The notes beneath the pieces were generated by a model that had not been told where the DNA came from, did no database searches, and worked only from the letters and a program-made list of their open reading frames with translations. From NCBI GenBank assembly GCA_027493875.1, contig JAOSJX010000012.1:248001-312000 (forward strand): a stretch of DNA of 64,000 nt, written 5' to 3'. Below are positions 16,530 to 58,448 of this stretch, piece after piece. Positions within the stretch are counted from its first letter, which is position 1, and each line of letters starts with the position of its first letter. A program made the position numbers and the translations under genes. Source of the DNA: Deltaproteobacteria bacterium (GTDB lineage Bacteria; Lernaellota; Lernaellaia; JACKCT01).

Positions 16530-18870
16530 ATGCGCCGCGGCGAAAGAAACCGGATTTTGGTCTTCGCCGCGGCGATGTGCTTAATGGCTATCGGAGCGCC
16601 GATGGGATGCTCCTGTGGCGAGAGTGATTCTGACGATCCGGGCGGGATCGGAGAATTTGACGACGACACCGATCCCAGCGCCGCTGACGACGACGATCTG
16701 ACAGGCGATGACGACGATACTATTCCCACGAATGACGACGATTTCGACGATGACGATCTCGACGACGACGTTGATGATGACCTCGACGACGACGCGGATG
16801 TAGTCGGCGAAGATATTTGCGTCGACGTTTGGGACGACGTCGGCGAGTGCCCGCGCGGTTTTCTGACGCCGGACGGGGCGTGCATCGAACGCATCGCCGG
16901 CGGCGCGCCCGGCCGCGAGGGTGTGTCCCTCGCCGTCGGGCCTGACAACCTATCCTACGTCGCCTCCGTCAAAGGCCGCGATCTCCGCATCTACACCATT
17001 GACTCTTCCGGCGCGGCACCGTCATGCACGGTACGCACGATCGACTTCATGGCCGCCGGGCCGTCGATGGTCGTGGCTTCGGACGGCCGTTTTCATCTCG
17101 CTTATACGAATCTCTGGACCGACACGCTGAAGTACGCGACGGACGCATCGGGAACCTGGATCTTCGAGGATATCGCGGACGTGGGTCCGCAGAGGACCTT
17201 TTCCGACGAAACGCTCTACCACGCGCACGCCTCGGTCGCCGTCGGCCCGGACGGCAACCCGCACATCGCCTACATCAACCGGACGGACGCCGATCTTCGC
17301 TACGCCAAGAAAAGCGGCGGGACCTGGACGACCGAGCCGGTGGTGACCGAGGGCAATTTCGGAGCGCAGACGGGCATCGCGGTGGACCCGTTCGGCCATG
17401 CGCACATGGTCGCGCGCAGCGTAATGACCTTCGGCGCTTATATGGTTTACGCGACGAACAAAACGGGGACGTGGACGACGATGTATCCGTCCGGCAACGC
17501 GCGCGGCCCGGCGGTCGCGACAGACGCGGCGGGGAACGCGCACATCGCGGTCTGGCTCGATCCCGGCTCGTTCCTCCAACTGACGTACATCACCGACGCA
17601 TCGGGTTCCTGGACCTCGGAAACGCCGGGGTCCGTTTTAGCGGGCCACGATCCGGCCATCGTGGTGGATGCGTCGGGCGCGGCGCATATCGCCGACTGGT
17701 TCACCACGTTAAACGGGCTGGGCGCCGGGTAGCTTCACGAACAAGAGCGGAATCTGGAAACGCTCTCTCGCGCTGCGCGAGGACGACGACCACAGCAATA
17801 TCCTCAACTTCTCGCTCGCGCTGGACGCGGCCGGCGAACCGCGGATCGCGTATTACATCCAGGAGGAGATCCGGGCGCTGCGGTTCGTGACCCACGAAAA
17901 CGGAACGTGGGTGGCCGAGGCGTTGGATGCGGGTACCGCCGGAAGTATTTGGTGGGGCATGGACAACATCGACAGTCAGTATTTGCTAACCAATAACTAC
18001 GATTTTCACTACGAATATGGCCATAGAGTTTCAGATACGGACAACTGGGCGTATGAATCAATTATTCCCGAATACCAATCCACCTTGAGCGATTTTACGG
18101 ATTTTATTGTCGACGAGTTCGGACACGCGCACTTCGTTCGCCCTTATAATCGCGATCTGCTTTATGCGACGGATTCGTCGGGGGCGTGGCAAACAGAACT
18201 GTTACCCGCACTATCGGGCGGCGTCTTATTATTTCCCTCAATAGACGTCGGGCAGAGCGATTCCGCGGCCGTTGCCGTTGTCGAAGTCGATAGCGGCGTT
18301 CTCGTTTCTACTTTTGCCGACGGAGAATGGGAATCATTCGATTTGGTTGACGGGTTAGGAACAAACCGTGTCGCCTTAAAATTCGATGCCGTCGGGACGG
18401 TCCATCTCGCTTACGGTCGTGAGGACGGCATCGCATACGCAACGCAATCCGGCGATTCGTGGAACGTCGAGCTTGTTGATTCCGCCGACAACGATGCTTC
18501 TTACGCATACGATCCCATTGTCCTTTGTTTAAGCTCTGGTGACGAACCGCGCATCGCGTACAGCGCCGGTCAGAAAACATATTTTGCGTGGAAATATTTA
18601 GGCAATTCTTGGGTCATTGACGAAATTGAGTTTGACGCGGCTTATCTCTCCTTAGCCGTTGATGACGAAGATATGCCCCATCTCTTTTTATCTCTATACG
18701 ATCAAGCGGGCGTTTATTACGTCACCGGACAGCCAGGTACGTGGCAAACATCAAAAATCGACAACGCGGCATTTATGATTTCTTCCGCTAGCACTTTGGG
18801 TGAAGTCATTCGTTCGGCGTACCTCGGCACTGACAATGAAGCCAATTTAGTAAGGGTTCGTATCAATTAA
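16530..18870 (+). CDS. Lipoprotein with N-terminal Asp-rich linker and repeated beta-propeller-like units, frameshift ~17725
   Basis: RBS GGAGG upstream; lipobox-like MAIGAPMGCSCGES; DDDDLTGDDDDTIPTNDDDFDDDDLDDDVDDDLDDDAD; recurring GTWTTE / GNPHIAYIN / GHAHM units; continues in ORF 17887..18870. Confidence 0.75.
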
Positions 18871-24893: not shown

Positions 24894-26642
24894 TCAGCAG
24901 CCGGAGCAGCCCCCGCAACCGTCATCGTCGTCATCATCGTTGTCGTCGTCATCGTCCGCGGCGTCGTCATCCGCGTCATCGTCCGCGTCGTCGTCCGCGT
25001 CATCGTCGGCGTCGTCATCCGCGTCGTCGTCGTCGCCGGGAACGTTGCACGCGTTGGCCTCGCCGGGGGTGGGCGTTCCGTTTTGCCAGGTATTTGAGAG
25101 GTCCTCGCTTGTTTCGTCATGCGTTGACCCGTCAAAGCGGCAGCCGTTGTTATCCCCCGTTTTTTCTTCCGCGCCTTCATCGGGATCGCATCGTTCGAAG
25201 CTCTGATCCGTCGGATTCGCGGACGAGGAGATCAAATCCTGGTCCGTGGTCGCCGTGTCGTCCTGATAGTCGCTTTCAAGAGCGTCCGCATCGACGCCGT
25301 CAATCGAAACATCGGTTTTGTCGACGAAGCCGGACTTGTCACCCCACCCGGCGATATCGCAGTCGCAGACGAGGTCGTCCTCGCCGTCCCAATAGTAGAG
25401 CACGACGGCCGGACCGTCTTGCGTCAGATCGCCTTGATCGTTGATCGAGCCGGTAAAGGCTTCCATCAATTCCTGAACGCCGTCCGCGCCGCCTTCCTCG
25501 TACAACTCGTAGTCCGGGTCGAAGCCGTACTTGGCGTTGAAGTTGGTCGTCCCCGAAAGGCTGACGACGACGAAGTCGCCCGGGTCGATGCCCTTGCCGT
25601 TGCTCGGGAACTTGGCGTTGAAATAACCGCCCGCGCCTGATTTCGTGTCGACCGTCGCATCCTGCGTCACGACGCCGTAGTAGAGGTCGCTGTTCGACAG
25701 GTAGATATTGCCCAAGCCGATCCACTGGTCGGTCGGGTTGTACAATTCGACGAAATCGTCCGACGTGCTCACCGCGACGATTTCATTGAGCAGCGGACAC
25801 ATCTCGGGAACGAACTCGTAAAAATCGTCGTCATCGTCGATATCGTCGTCATCGACGTCGTCATCCACGTCGTCGTCGACGTCATCGTCAACGTCATCGT
25901 CGGCATCATCATCCACGTCGTCATCGACATCGTCGTCGGCGTCGTCATCGGGGTCGGGCGGCGGACGATCCGCGCCCCCATCGTCGGTGGGGCCGCCCTG
26001 GTCCGGGTCGTCGATCTCGAAAACGATCCAGTCGCAGTGCTGGATCAAGCCGTCTTCGCCGATGCGGATCGGCCATTCGCCGCGAATCGGCTCGTTGGGG
26101 CCGTAGATGATCGGGTTTTCGTCGGTGCCGAAGACATCACGCCGGTGGGCGGTGGGCTGCATGTCCGGACCGCCGAGGAGGTCCGCGCTTGTCGGCGTAA
26201 TGAAAATCCTCAGTGAGGCGCCGCCCGGCAGCGCCTTCGCGTTGATCTTTAACCGGAAGTTCGGGCCCTTTCCGTCGGCGAGGTCGCCGTTGATGTCGGG
26301 GTGCAGCCCGAGCTTCGGGTTCTGCGCGTAGCCGGGAGGCTCCGAGTAGCCCTGGGCGACGATCTTCCAGCTTCCGTCCGGATTGCGTTGAACGTACGCG
26401 CGGTCGCCGGGTGTGAAGCCGTCGTCCCAAACCCCGGGATTCACGATCGACTGCTGCAGCGGCGCGATACCGAGATGCTGCCCCGAGTCGTTGTAGTGAT
26501 CGACAAAATATTGCCAACCGTTTGTTTCGCCGTCCTTCGGCCACTTGTAGGGTTCTTCCGCCCAAACGCTGACGGCAACCGCCACCGAAAGGACAAAGAG
26601 GAGCGCCAGAGCGAGTAGCAATGTGCGACGATGGGACATCAT
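24894..26642 (-). CDS. Secreted lamin-tail-domain (LTD) protein with two Asp-rich linkers and C-terminal Cys cluster
   Basis: SD GGGAGGTGG just upstream; signal peptide MSHRRTLLLALALLFVLSVAVAVSVWAEE; LTD-like LNEIVAVSTSDDFVELYNPTDQWIGLGNIYLSNSD; ends ...GDDDDADDDADDDADDDADDDADDDAADDDDDNDDDDDDGCGGCSGC*. Confidence 0.85.
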   Translation of the reverse strand: MMSHRRTLLLALALLFVLSVAVAVSVWAEEPYKWPKDGETNGWQYFVDHYNDSGQHLGIAPLQQSIVNPGVWDDGFTPGDRAYVQRNPDGSWKIVAQGYSEPPGYAQNPKLGLHPDINGDLADGKGPNFRLKINAKALPGGASLRIFITPTSADLLGGPDMQPTAHRRDVFGTDENPIIYGPNEPIRGEWPIRIGEDGLIQHCDWIVFEIDDPDQGGPTDDGGADRPPPDPDDDADDDVDDDVDDDADDDVDDDVDDDVDDDVDDDDIDDDDDFYEFVPEMCPLLNEIVAVSTSDDFVELYNPTDQWIGLGNIYLSNSDLYYGVVTQDATVDTKSGAGGYFNAKFPSNGKGIDPGDFVVVSLSGTTNFNAKYGFDPDYELYEEGGADGVQELMEAFTGSINDQGDLTQDGPAVVLYYWDGEDDLVCDCDIAGWGDKSGFVDKTDVSIDGVDADALESDYQDDTATTDQDLISSSANPTDQSFERCDPDEGAEEKTGDNNGCRFDGSTHDETSEDLSNTWQNGTPTPGEANACNVPGDDDDADDDADDDADDDADDDADDDAADDDDDNDDDDDDGCGGCSGC

Positions 26643-26817
26643 CCACCTCCCGTCCGCGAAGACATTCATGTTGTGCGGTCCCAACGCTAGCACAATGGCG
26701 CTCGTTCGACAACGAAAATTTCGGCAAAAAGCTTATAACATGTTAATAATACTTGATATTTTATGAGTAAGAGGCGTCTCCATTGACACCGCTTGCGCGA
26801 CGGGCCTAATGGTTTGA

Positions 26818-29478
26818 ATGAAACGACGCGGCATCCGATCTTTCCTGTTGTTTCCGCTGGTGCTGATCGTGACCTGCGGTTTCTGGTCAACGGCAAATCC
26901 CGCTTGGGGCTGGTCCGACGAGCGCGAGTTATTGGTCGTCGCGGACATCGAGAATCCCGCGGACGTCGCCGCCCTCCGTGATGTTCCGGGACTGATCATT
27001 GAAGAAACGTATGACGGGTGGGCGCAGGTGCGTTTGACGGAGTCGGCCTACGAGCAGTTCAAAGACTGAATCTCGCACACGAGATTGCCGTCACCGATCT
27101 GCGCGCCTGGCATTTTCGAAATGCGCAGGCCGCGTGCGTTCCGTGCGGAGATTGGCACGACCATGATTGGATGATGACTCAGGCGGACGCCTGCGCCGCG
27201 GATCATCCGGATATCTGCGCCGTGTCGGACATCGGAACGTCGGCCGGCGGGTACCGGATTGCGGCGGTAAAGATTTCGGACAACGTCGGCGACCATGAAG
27301 ACGAGCCCGCCGTGCTTTTCGAGGGATCGGTTCACGGCAACGAAGTCGTCGGCGCCGAAGTGAACGTTCACATGATGAACTATCTCACGGACAATTTCGG
27401 CCTCGCGCCCGACGTGAATTTTTCTTATCGAAGAGCGCGAAATCTACTTTCTCTTCTCGACCAACCCGGACGGTCTGTGTGCGTGCTCGCGCTATAACGA
27501 CAACGGCGTCGACCTGAACCGTGATTCCGGTTTCGGCTGGCACCACGACGGAAGCTCGCCCGCGCCGCTGTCTCAGCCCGAGTCCCGCGCGATCTGGAAC
27601 ACGTGGCGCGGCCGGCCCTTCGCGTTTTCGACAAGCTGGCACGGCGGCGACGAAGTCTTTCTTTACGCGTGGAGCTTCACCCATGAGGTACCGCTCGACG
27701 TCGCCGAGTACGAATTTCTCGGCGCCGACTACGTCGGCCTCCATCCTTATATCGATGACTACGAGCAAGGTGTCGGCTTGTACGCGCTGCCGTATCACGG
27801 TTCCACGAAGGACACGGCGTACGGTTCGTTCGGATCTCTGGCGTGGACCATCGAACTTTCGACGATCAAAGCGCCGGACTTTGCGACGAGGTACGCGTCG
27901 TACATGGCGGACAACGAAAGCACGGTGCTGCGTCTGATCGATCTCGCCGGCGCGCAGGGCCTTGAGGGCGTTGTGACGGATGCCGACACGAGCGGTCCGT
28001 TGGCCGCGACGATCGAAGTGAACGGCCGGATGATCGCCTACGCCGATCCCGACAACGGCGCGGTCCATCGTTTTCTCCTGCCGGGAATTTACGACCTGAT
28101 CGTTCGCGCGAACGGCTACGAGCCGGCCGAGATGCACGGCGTCACCGTGAACGCGAATCAACTTGCCGATATTTCCGTGGCCTTGGAGCCGGAAGACGAA
28201 CCGCGGGCGTACCTGCATCAGGTTCTTTACAACTTCAGCTCGGTCGATGAAGCGACCGCGGAGCAGGGATTTTTTGTTCTCGGCCCGCCTGACGGCCGGG
28301 CGTTTCCGATCGGCATTCAACAAAATCTTTCCGGCCTGGGCGCGACGGATAGTTTTCTCGTGGCGGATTTCGGGGCGGCGGGTCTCGGCGACGCATCGGG
28401 CGACGATTTCGCGGTGTTCGACGGAGACGCCACGGATGCGGAACCGTATTCGGTGTTCGCGTCCACCGGTGACGCGTTCGGGCCGTGGACCCTGGTGGGC
28501 GAGGGCGCCGGAACGCAGGCCTTTGATCTTGCCGACGCGCCGCTCGCGGCGGTGCGTTATTTGAAAATCGCGCATCGCGAGACCGTCCGCGGCAAGGCCG
28601 ACGACAACGGCTTGGAGCTCGACGCGGTCGGCACGCCGACGACGCAAGCGAATTTTCTGGCGGACGTTACGCAGGGCCCGCCGCCGCTGACGGTGCGGTT
28701 TACGGACCATTCCGTCGGGTCGCCGACGAGCTGGGCTTGGGATTTCGGCGACGGCGGATCGAGTACCGAAACCGATCCCGAACACGTGTACGCCGAGGAC
28801 GGCGTGTACACCGTATCGCTCTCCGTCGTCGGACCGCTCGGCGGGAATACGCATACGAAAACCGATTATATCGTCGTCGCTTCGGAATTCCCCGCCGCGT
28901 CCTTCGACGCGCAGCCGAAAAACGGTTTGCCGCCGCTCGACGTTTCGTTCCTTAATTTTTCCACGGGGACGATCGACGAAACGCGTTGGGACTTCGGCGA
29001 CGGCGAAACGTCGGCGGAAACGGAACCGGCGCACCGCTACACCGCCGCCGGAACGTATACCGTCTCGCTGACCGTCTCCGGCCCCGCCGGCTCGGACAAC
29101 GCGGTCATGGACGGCATGATCGTCGTCGGATGCCCGGCACCCGAGGCGGATTTCAACTATGGTCCCGACGAAGGTCCCGCCCCGCTCACGGTCGATTTCG
29201 CGAACGCGACGGACTCGGTGGAAGGATGCGGGACGGCCGCGTTGTGGGATTTTGGCGACGGTGGCGAGGGCTCCGGAAACGAAATCCGGCACACGTATGC
29301 CGAGCCGGGCGTCTACTCCGTCGGCCTGCTTGTCTCGACGCCGGGCGGCTCCGACCACGCGTTTAAAAACAACATCATTAAGGTCGGCGTGGACGGTTCG
29401 TCGGACGACCTCGACGACGACGCCGATGATGATGACGACGATGACGGAGGCGGCGGCGCATGCGGATGTTCCTCATAA
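26818..29478 (+). CDS. Secreted M14 zinc carboxypeptidase-like protein with PKD domains and Asp-rich/Cys C-terminus; frameshifts ~27066 and ~27420
   Basis: EGSVHGNEVVGAEV (HxxE), FLFSTNPDG, VDLNRDSGFGWHHDG, LAWTIELS; three PKD signatures (WAWDFGDGGSSTETDPEHVY, TRWDFGDGETSAETEPAHRY, ALWDFGDGGEGSGNEIRHTY); C-term DDADDDDDDDGGGGACGCSS*. Confidence 0.85.
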
Positions 29479-50278: not shown

Positions 50279-51988
50279 ATGAAAATCGTGCGAATCATCT
50301 TGTGTGTGGGAGCCATCATGGGGATCGGCGTCAACGCCGACGCGGCGTCGCCGTCCGCGGCGCCGGATCATATCCATCTTTCGTGGCAACAATCGCCCGC
50401 CACGACAATGACCGTCATGTGGCGGACGAGCAACGCCGTCACCGCGTCGCAGGTGCAATACGGACCGACCGCGAGCTACGGCAATAACGTCAATGGAACC
50501 TATGAGGCGCTCCCCGAAGGACGCGGCAACGCGCACATCGTGGAGATCACCGGCCTCGATCCGAATTCGACGTATCACTATCGCGTGGGAGACGGCGGCT
50601 CGAATTGGTCGGCGGACTATCTTTTCTCAACGGTTTCCGAATCCACGGACATGTGTACGCCCGTCAAGTTCGTGGCCATGGGCGATTCGCGCAGCAGCAC
50701 CGGCGACGGCGCGTCCATTTATTGGTCAACCGTTATGGACGCCGCGACAGACGAGGAGCCGCAGTTTGTGCTCTTCAACGGCGACGCCATTGCCGAGGGC
50801 GACCAGCAAGAATCCGGATGGGAGGATTGGTTCGAGAAGGCGGCCAGCGACCTCCGCACGCAGCCGATGATGATGGCCTGGGGTAATCACGAGGACCGCG
50901 GCGACGATACGTTCCTGAGGAATTTCGCGCTCCCCGTCAACGACGATTCCGGCACAGAGGATTTTTACGACTTCCGCGTCGGCCCGATCCACTTCTTCGC
51001 CATGGATACCGAGCGCGTGGACAACCGCTGGGCGCGCCAGGCGACGTGGCTCGACGGCAAGCTCTCCGCCACGGACGCGATCTGGACGGTCGCTTATCAT
51101 CACCAGCCGACCTATTCGTCGGGCACGACGCACGGCTCGACGGACGAGTGCATCGACTACTGGGCGCCCGTATTCGACGATCACCATCTCGATATCGATA
51201 TCGGAAGCCACGACCACATCTACGAACGCACCAAGCCGATGTTCGACGAATCGCCGATTCCCAATCAGGATTACAGCCAGGGAACGATGTATCTCGTCAC
51301 CGGCGGCGCCGGCGCGTTCACCAATCCCATTCTCAACATCTTCAACAATTTCTACCTCAAGGGCATCGGCGCAACGCACTACATTCTCTTCGAGGTCGAG
51401 TTCAACAAACTGCGGCTGCGCGCGTTCAGCGAGCTCGGCGTCGCCTACGACGATTACACGCTCGAAAAACCGGAACTTGCTTACCCGACCGCCGCGTTCG
51501 AGGCCGACCGCGCCGAGATTTATCAATACGAAGCGGTCACGTTCAACGGCACCGACTCGGTCGATCCCTGCGGCGAAATCATTCAGTGGACATGGGATTT
51601 CGGCGACGGCGGTGTGGGTAACGGCGAAACCGTGCAGCACACGTACAGCGAAGACGGAACCTTCGATGTCACGCTCACCGTCATGGACCTCGACGCCAAC
51701 ACGGACTCGGTCACGCTGACCTTCGACGTTCTGCCGGGCACGCCGCCGGACGACGACGCCGATGACGACGCGGACGACGACCTCGACGACGACATTGACG
51801 ATGATGCCGACGATGATCTCGACGACGACGCGGACGACGACGCCGTCGACGATGACGACGATTTCAATCCGCCCGACGGCGACGACGATTCGGCGGGCGA
51901 TGACGACGCCGGTGTCGGGGGCGACGACGATGACGAAACGCGCGCTACCGGTGACGACGACGACAGCGACGGCGGATGTGGCTGTTGA
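50279..51988 (+). CDS. Purple-acid-phosphatase-like metallophosphoesterase with PKD domain, Asp-rich linker and C-terminal GGCGC
   Basis: Intact; Fn3-like SWQQSPATTMTVMWRT; FVAMGDSRSSTGDGAS, LFNGDAIAEGD, WGNHEDRG, YHHQPTYSSG, DIGSHDHIYER; PKD WTWDFGDGGVGNGETVQHTY; C-term DDDDSDGGCGC*. Confidence 0.92.
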   Translation: MKIVRIILCVGAIMGIGVNADAASPSAAPDHIHLSWQQSPATTMTVMWRTSNAVTASQVQYGPTASYGNNVNGTYEALPEGRGNAHIVEITGLDPNSTYHYRVGDGGSNWSADYLFSTVSESTDMCTPVKFVAMGDSRSSTGDGASIYWSTVMDAATDEEPQFVLFNGDAIAEGDQQESGWEDWFEKAASDLRTQPMMMAWGNHEDRGDDTFLRNFALPVNDDSGTEDFYDFRVGPIHFFAMDTERVDNRWARQATWLDGKLSATDAIWTVAYHHQPTYSSGTTHGSTDECIDYWAPVFDDHHLDIDIGSHDHIYERTKPMFDESPIPNQDYSQGTMYLVTGGAGAFTNPILNIFNNFYLKGIGATHYILFEVEFNKLRLRAFSELGVAYDDYTLEKPELAYPTAAFEADRAEIYQYEAVTFNGTDSVDPCGEIIQWTWDFGDGGVGNGETVQHTYSEDGTFDVTLTVMDLDANTDSVTLTFDVLPGTPPDDDADDDADDDLDDDIDDDADDDLDDDADDDAVDDDDDFNPPDGDDDSAGDDDAGVGGDDDDETRATGDDDDSDGGCGC

Positions 51989-57283: not shown

Positions 57284-58448
57284 CTACAGGGAGCAGGAGC
57301 CTCCCGTTAATCCGCGTCCGTCGCCCAACTCATCCTCGCCGTCCGCGGGTACCACCTCGTCGTCAAAGTCGTCGTCGGCTTCCGGAATCGTCGTCGTCCT
57401 CCGGAAACGGCGACCCCGAGGTGGTCGTCGTCGTTCCGTCGCCGGTGGTTGTCGTCGTACTCGTCGAAGGCGCGTCCGTCGTCGACGTGGTGGACGTCGT
57501 CGTGGTCGTGACCGTCGCTCCGGTGGTGGTGCTTGTCGCCGCCGTCGTGGTCGTTGTGCTTCCCCCGGTGGTCGTTGTCGTCGACGGGGGGTACTGGTCG
57601 TTGTGGTGGACGGCAGGACCGATGTTGTCGTGGTTGAGCTCGACGTGGTGGACGTCGACGAAGTGCTGGTCGTTGTCGTTGTTGGTGTCGTCGATGTTGT
57701 CGTGCTCGTGGTGGTTGATGTCGTTGACGTCGTCGACGAACTCGTTGTCGTGGACGAACTCGTACTCGTGCTTGTGGAGGACGATGTCGTCGTGGAAGAC
57801 GACGTCGTTGTCGTGGTGGTCGTCGTGGTGGTCGTGCCGCAATACACACTCACGCCGCGAATCATGAGATTGCCGGGGGCCACCTCGGTATCCCAGGGAT
57901 CCCAGCCCGCCGATTCCGACCCGATCCACCCGTGCCCAAGACGCGGCGGCGTCTGGTCAAGCCCCCACCGCACTGTCGCCGCTCGTTTGAAACTCCAGCC
58001 CGACGCACCACGACCCGCCGGCGATCGGCACGTCGAATTCGGGCTCCCCCGACAAGTCGTACGACAGGAAGGCCGGGATCGCCGGGCCGAACGGGTCCGA
58101 CGTCCAGACCGGCGCGCCTTCCGGCGGGCCGTTGCCATCCGAGTCGACGAAAACGATCCACCGCAGCGACAAACTGATATCGAGGGGCGCGAGGAACGCC
58201 GAGATCTCTTGGAGGTACGATGGGGTATCCGCCGGCTCGATGCACGTGACGAACGACACGCCCACCGCGCCGGTGAAAAGCGCTTCCCAGCCGCCGTCGT
58301 CCTCGATCAGCGGTTCGTCCAGCGGGATGGCGCACGCGGTGTCCGCCGTAAACTCGTCCAAGGCGTCAAAATCCGCATGCGCCCGCGCGGCCATCAAGCC
58401 GAGCAACGCTAAAACAAACGCAAGCGGGGCGAGAAAGCGTCGTGTCAT
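57284..58448 (-). CDS. Secreted protein with long Thr/Ser-rich mucin-like tract and Asp-rich C-terminus; frameshifted
   Basis: MTRRFLAPLAFVLALLGLMAARAHA signal; globular FDALDEFTADTACAIPLDEPL...; then GVSVYCGTTTTTTTTTTTSSSTTTSSSTSTSTSS...; C-term PEADDDFDDEVVPADGEDELGDGRGLTGGSCSL*. Confidence 0.65.
57420..57840. repeat. Low-complexity trinucleotide-rich tract encoding Thr/Ser repeats
   Basis: Dense gtcgtcgtggtc-type repeats on + strand (ACN/AGC/TCN codons on - strand). Confidence 0.85.

Follow-up and report, generated by a model that had tools for sequence, protein, structure and literature searches.

Sorting tags carried at the C terminus of exported proteins are known in several forms, and those compared here (LPXTG, PEP-CTERM, GlyGly-CTERM and MYXO-CTERM) all use a membrane helix together with a protease. 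Closest to the present case is MYXO-CTERM (TIGR03901) with its myxosortase (MrtX, NF040593). In the model proposed for this system, the transmembrane (TM) helix would hold the protein in the membrane until a Cys has been modified, and myxosortase would cut just after that Cys. Specifically, the study of myxosortase describes a generic GCGC motif with an invariant Cys that is needed for cleavage, and places the cleavage on the distal side of the presumed lipidated Cys (PMC11980579). Lipidation is only proposed for MYXO-CTERM too, and the acyltransferase is unidentified, with Lgt as the leading candidate (PMC11980579). At the opposite end of the protein, lipoproteins of Capnocytophaga need no more than an acidic N-terminal motif to be exported to the surface (PMC5080379).

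The DNA analysed here, a stretch of 64,000 nucleotides referred to as the window, encodes proteins with an Asp-rich C-terminal tail that ends in a similar Cys signature and has no helix after it. No description of this tag was found in the open literature, nor anything on Asp-rich C-terminal tags.

Tagged proteins in the window

The preliminary description had claimed that three unrelated signal-peptide proteins have a common end of Asp residues and a Gly/Cys cluster, and this is borne out by reading of the ORFs (Table 1). As read, the ORF with the weak LTD match (below the Pfam cut-off) ends in DDDDDNDDDDDDGCGGCSGC, the M14-PKD frame in DDDADDDDDDDGGGGACGCSS and the metallophosphatase ORF in GDDDDSDGGCGC, and among the window's frames of 80 aa or more no other has such an end. 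The tail had been given as (DDDA/DDDV)n with a terminal Gly/Cys cluster; the tail itself stands, but the DDDV of the weak-LTD protein forms an internal linker and is not part of it. The terminal motif is also present, in a tighter form than had been proposed (G/C-C-G-C-stop, with CGC at the end of 127 of the 137 tails read), and two of the three copies in the window are atypical variants (GCGGCSGC and ACGCSS).

The PKD and M14 matches of the second protein lie in two frames, and the M14 gene is therefore frame-broken in the assembly of the window. A predicted lipoprotein with the Asp-rich stretch at its N-terminal end lies in the window as well, so that both formats (see below) are present. 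Separately, a poly-Thr ORF at 57284-58306 on the minus strand ends in ADDDFDDEVVPADGEDELGDGRGLTGGSCSL-stop, and may be related, in a degenerate or frame-damaged form, to the VTGGCCGCG-type tails (L043, L044).

Table 1. Features of the window that carry, or mirror, the C-terminal tag
Feature	Positions	Strand	Basis and remarks
Secreted protein, weak LTD match	24894..26693	-	ORF reading and Pfam; predicted Sec signal peptide MNVFADGRWMMSHRRTLLLALALLFVLSVAVAVSVWAEE, internal DDDV linker, C-terminal tag
C-terminal tag of the weak-LTD protein	24894..25037	-	GDDDDADDD...DDDDDNDDDDDDGCGGCSGC-stop, directly from the ORF
M14 carboxypeptidase-PKD protein	27018..29478	+	Frame-broken in the assembly: M14 part 27018-27497, rest in another frame to 29478
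C-terminal tag of the M14-PKD protein	29398..29478	+	SSDDLDDDADDDDDDDGGGGACGCSS-stop; variant, two residues beyond CGC
Metallophosphatase-type protein, Pur_ac_phosph_N and PKD	50279..51988	+	Pfam; predicted Sec signal peptide and C-terminal tag
C-terminal tag of the metallophosphatase-type protein	51749..51988	+	DDDADDDADDDL...GDDDDSDGGCGC-stop
Predicted lipoprotein, mirror format	16530..17732	+	MRRGERNRILVFAAAMCLMAIGAPMGCSCGESDSDD...DDDDFDDDDLDDD; Asp-rich tether after the N-terminal lipobox Cys, without C-terminal tag

Anatomy and cargo of the tag

Over the 137 tails, which were chosen for a Cys pair and not for CGC at an exact position, the tag is built of an Asp-rich stretch (median 46 aa including the tag, interquartile range 36-61) followed by (S/G)-(G/C)-C-G-C-stop. 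The commonest ends are GCGC (82 tails), CCGC (32), SCGC (6) and ACGC (4), and position by position C stands at -3 in 133, G at -2 in 131 and C at -1 in 130 of the 137. Two or three Cys (CGC, CCGC, CGCGC) are found in most tails; in some variants the tag runs on beyond its final Cys (ACGCSS, GCCGCG, CGCGV) or has a single Cys (SGGCS, GCGN), and therefore its exact end is not strict. Just ahead of the Asp tail, a short Cys-rich stretch (CVDNCCE-like) occurs in L035, L043, L061 and L085, possibly as a small domain in its own right.

Signal peptides and lipoboxes were assigned from a simple hydrophobicity score and not by SignalP. By this score a Sec signal peptide is predicted in 86 of the 91 complete tagged ORFs from six further genomes of the phylum (G001-G006). 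Nearly all tagged proteins lack a type II lipobox signal peptide and have the type I form instead, the exceptions with both an apparent N-terminal lipobox and the tag being L061 (L061:937), L072 and L079. The cargo is varied, as a search with 67 tagged proteins gave at least 57 Pfam families, among them Kelch, FG-GAP, PKD, metallophosphatases, subtilases, trypsins, M14 and phospholipase C.

Distribution in the genome, the phylum and beyond

Genomes were searched with the pattern D3-x(0-10)-CGC-x(0-5)-stop, with the reversed pattern as a control, and were sampled in stretches. The window's own genome (G000, 5.21 Mb, 78% complete) gave 140+99 raw matches against 0+1 for the reversed pattern, so that the tail pattern cannot be attributed to chance; the matches fall in about 39 distinct places. 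It had been left open whether the tag is limited to the three window proteins, and the pattern search places it genome-wide and phylum-wide: it was found in all seven phylum genomes examined, with 4 to about 40 or more proteins in each and a reversed-pattern control close to zero. Distinct tag stops number about 40 in G001, about 41 in G005, about 31 in G006, 6 in G004 and 4 in G003, and many tag places are present among the matches listed for G002.

Two DNA scans of 85,488 species, which may omit near relatives of the phylum, gave nothing convincing, and a spread of the tag outside the phylum was rejected as a possibility. More specifically, the strict pattern had no match in these species, and the relaxed one (DDDxGCGC-stop) had 15 scattered matches, 13 of which are very short ORFs or chance frames and two of which are single isolated cases, in Krumholzibacteriota (L164) and Kofleriaceae (L174). 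In 290 genomes of Myxococcota, the phylum of the latter, 38 matches were obtained, with one in frame with its stop by inspection. At the patterns used, the tag family thus appears restricted to one phylum.

Tagged ORFs without a recognisable start are frequent in G000 (27 of 41) compared with its relatives (5 of 91), because of apparent frameshifts in the G000 assembly. This assembly seems to hold such frameshifts frequently, the split M14 gene at 27018-29478 being one example.

Relation to MYXO-CTERM and myxosortase

Whole-genome search yields between zero and four TIGR03901 matches per genome, and those inspected are helix-bearing tripartite tails. Full MYXO-CTERM tails with a signature identical to that of the short tag include DDDDDDDGCGCSVTGGKASGFALPALMLMIGVFAYVLGLRRSR-stop in G000, DDDDDDDDGCGCVIGGGADG..LAVSLRKKR-stop in G005 and DEEEEGCGCQTAK..VARRRA-stop in G003. 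When aligned, the short tag matches these co-resident tails up to the Cys, where it stops and the full copies add the helix and the Arg cluster. Helix-bearing copies are few, whereas the same genomes hold dozens of short ends of the type DDDDDSGCGC-stop.

Some of the full copies are neighbours. Adjacent short proteins at G000:C25:4013-4951 (L109, L111) carry the complete MYXO-CTERM tail, from an Asp run and GCGC (or a variant of it) to the helix and Arg, and possibly form a paralogous cluster, and a similar pair lies at G005:C122:68928-69500 (L106, L110). A MYXO-CTERM-like segment is also found at G005:C27:47419-47517 (L112), inside an open frame that runs without a stop into a second signal-peptide-like stretch.

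The preliminary description had inferred that the tag would be of a different class, since its end is free of a TM helix and an Arg cluster, and had named a match to a catalogued sorting tag as an objection. The helix-free, Arg-poor end is confirmed. In all 91 complete tagged ORFs (G001-G006) the final 70 aa are free of TM-like segments, and only three have K/R in the last 12; no match of the short form to an already catalogued CTERM model was seen either, with TIGR03901 and the PEP-CTERM, GlyGly-CTERM and LPXTG models all absent from the families shown for the 67 tagged proteins. The conclusion is nevertheless too strong, because true MYXO-CTERM copies with the same Asp/GCGC signature exist in the same genomes, and the signature equals that of MYXO-CTERM minus the helix. 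Judged by its sequence, the short tag looks like a truncated relative of MYXO-CTERM, with a 'pre-cut' appearance, and would be better named as such.

Two tagged proteins match the NCBIfam 'myxosortase-dependent M36' family, and six genomes have MrtX-like CPBP proteins with EExxxR and HxxxN, none of which reaches the curated cut-off (NF040593). G001, which is 99% complete and has about 40 tags, has no detectable TIGR03901 or MrtX match, which is what one would expect of a short form that can do without myxosortase. On the basis of this one tag-rich genome without a match, and of an end that leaves nothing to cut, processing of the short tag by myxosortase was set aside.

A mirror format in lipoproteins

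An unbiased 300 kb of G006, with 227 genes from a crude codon-usage caller, was taken as a sample. Four of its proteins end in CxC or CC, all with an Asp tail, and none of them is clearly cytoplasmic; in this sample the tag is not found equally in cytoplasmic proteins, which had earlier been considered as an objection. Asp-rich stretches are present in 21 of the 227 genes, namely 15 predicted lipoproteins, five signal-peptide proteins and one tagged ORF without a clear start, the last being the sole such case among 87 genes without a signal; none of the 61 membrane proteins has one. Of the five signal-peptide proteins, two depart from the standard tag, one through a degenerate SGGCS end and the other as an apparent missed lipoprotein. 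Poly-Asp directly follows the lipobox Cys in 15 of the 30 predicted lipoproteins of the sample, and none of the 30 carries the tag.

One domain family appears in both formats. The lipoprotein L208:5528-7126 reads SCGGDDDD...poly-Asp and then the domain, without a tag, and the tagged protein L096:909-2579 reads signal peptide, domain, poly-Asp and GCGC-stop; their common domain is 35% identical over 433 aa (E 1e-64). At the level of the predicted proteins, these lipoproteins, with a Cys followed by poly-Asp, can thus be described as the mirror image of the tag.

Candidate enzymes

Each phylum genome has three Lgt-family genes. The first (Lgt1) stands beside lspA in seven genomes, the second (Lgt2) occurs in six and was not found in the tag-poor G003 (one data point), and the third (Lgt3) occurs in six or seven, since the member in G003 could not be firmly placed; G003 holds a further divergent copy. 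Mapped on Edwardsiella Lgt, the positions equivalent to R143 and R239 of the Escherichia coli enzyme are conserved in each of the three groups wherever the copy is intact. Copy number as such was rejected as a mark of the phylum: a single Lgt is found in 12 of 14 assorted genomes, and Myxococcota commonly have two to five matches. The extra paralogues are the leading candidate acyltransferases for the tag, a role that is inferred, and the evidence is suggestive rather than proof.

Near the Lgt2 gene of G000 lies a bufferin-like cluster (L191:5915-8006, G000:C6) with a small KD-repeat protein ending in GKCGEGSCGGKK, an MNIO enzyme (PF05114) and a partner protein. It suggested that the tag Cys might be modified by MNIO, as in bufferin and its relatives. 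This was rejected, as the enzyme family is present in one of the seven genomes and absent from the six others, and the tag is present in all seven.

Possible mechanisms

The reading we favour, with no better than even confidence, is that the tail serves as a C-terminal Cys anchor at the cell surface, set on an Asp tether and probably lipidated. Sec would export the protein by way of the type I signal peptide that the sequence predicts at its N terminus, and an unstructured and strongly acidic tether, some 46 residues long, would hold the folded domain off the membrane. The terminal (G/C)-C-G-C would be the attachment point, most likely by acylation of one or both Cys on the periplasmic side, and passage to the outer surface by the type II secretion system may follow, a step inferred from the model proposed for MYXO-CTERM. 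Where that model relies on a cut, the gene of the short tag would already encode the cut end, so that in this proposal no protease is needed, and an Lgt-family paralogue would acylate the tag Cys. The specific form of the proposal, a helix-free and protease-free C-terminal lipidation in which a dedicated Lgt paralogue acylates the (C)CGC of Sec-exported proteins for display on the Asp tether, with the need for helix and myxosortase dropped, is put forward only tentatively and with more doubt than trust. The tag family, its secretion signals, the absence of a helix, the identity of the signature with co-resident MYXO-CTERM tails and the domain swap are readings of sequence alone; surface location, anchoring, the lipid, the enzyme and the type II passage are inferred. 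In favour of the anchor stand the signature shared by short and full tails of the same genomes, the Sec signal peptides, the lack of a helix before or past the stop, the tag-rich G001 without a MYXO-CTERM or MrtX match, the mirror format and the domain found in both formats, the two M36 matches, the three Lgt genes together with GspD, and the statements of the myxosortase study on the Cys and on Lgt.

Several points weigh against a lipid anchor. Lipidation is without experimental evidence for the short tag and for MYXO-CTERM itself. It is not obvious how, without a helix, the Cys would stay at the membrane within reach of an acyltransferase; a lipobox is missing from the motif as well, and the variants noted above show that the tag has no strict end. 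The combination of lipobox and tag in the three exceptional proteins would be redundant for simple anchoring. As to Lgt, the additional paralogues may act on ordinary lipoproteins, and having several copies is common in Myxococcota as well.

Alternatively, the paired Cys could act without any lipid, as a crosslinking handle that forms disulfide or other thiol links to a partner in the surface or matrix, with the Asp run as a spacer. Most tails do have two or three Cys, compared with the single invariant Cys of a lipid anchor, and tagged proteins are exported to an oxidising compartment; we consider this unlikely but worth keeping in view, as by itself it explains neither why these genomes also place the signature ahead of a TM helix and an Arg cluster nor how N-terminal lipoproteins come to mirror the tag and to share a domain with a tagged protein. 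The lipoproteins bear on metal binding as well. Cys-x-Cys pairs are common soft-metal ligands, and the composition of the tail, which is seen directly, would allow Asp to bind Ca2+ and CGC/CCGC a soft metal, so as to stabilise the protein or attach it to mineral or exopolysaccharide. However, acidic runs also follow the lipobox Cys in half of the sampled lipoproteins, there without a terminal Cys cluster, and hence the place of the Asp run follows that of the Cys end and not that of a metal site; this and the mixture of families among the tagged domains make metal binding improbable.

It is just as hard to credit that the tail merely signals secretion by the type II system or aids solubility, with the proteins soluble outside and the Cys of little importance. 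GspD is present in 7/7 phylum genomes, and type I signal peptides and enzyme-like cargo would fit, but CGC is far more conserved than the rest of the tail and would not be kept by a pure solubility tail. Finally, the short tag could be an artefact of frameshifts or premature stops in MYXO-CTERM genes, or of stop-codon read-through, with the helix really present. The window assembly does contain frame-broken genes such as that of M14, and 106 of the 137 tails stop at TGA. The same tag is nevertheless found in six further assemblies, with TGA, TAA and TAG stops, and no helix with Arg tail is encoded past the stop in any frame downstream of the tails read, the hydrophobic stretches there looking like signal peptides of neighbouring genes. 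A helix hidden by read-through or frameshift was rejected for this reason, and the artefact can be set aside with very little reservation.

Comparison with known systems

If the tail is indeed an anchor, it suggests an undescribed way to fix proteins on the cell surface, and the tag provides a marker for surface proteins of a poorly known phylum. Like GlyGly-CTERM (rhombosortase), PEP-CTERM (exosortase) and LPXTG (sortase), it is a C-terminal sorting tag on many unrelated exported proteins; those tags are tripartite with a TM helix and a basic end, and the short tag has neither. The C termini of eukaryotic Rab proteins end in CC or CXC and are doubly prenylated. As a lead only, they offer a terminal double-Cys motif on a flexible tail, but they depend on a cytoplasmic prenyltransferase and an escort protein, and nothing tested points to a Rab-like route. 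N-terminal lipoproteins and the Bacteroidetes LES (K-(D/E)2 or Q-A-(D/E)2) also have an acidic stretch adjoining a Cys, with the differences that the tag Cys is C-terminal, without a lipobox or signal peptidase II site, and that the tag has runs of tens of Asp and not two.

The closest likeness remains that to MYXO-CTERM and myxosortase, with which the tag shares the N-terminal Sec signal peptide, the varied cargo, the linker and the CGC/CC signature. It differs in having no TM helix or Arg cluster and in ending at the Cys, in being unmatched by TIGR03901, and in its abundance in a genome without detectable myxosortase. The short tag ends at the key Cys, is used by dozens of proteins in a genome and occurs together with the full form; it separates the Cys signature from the helix and the protease, and the question that MYXO-CTERM poses, of what modifies the Cys and with what, becomes testable on a simple substrate with a short list of candidate enzymes.
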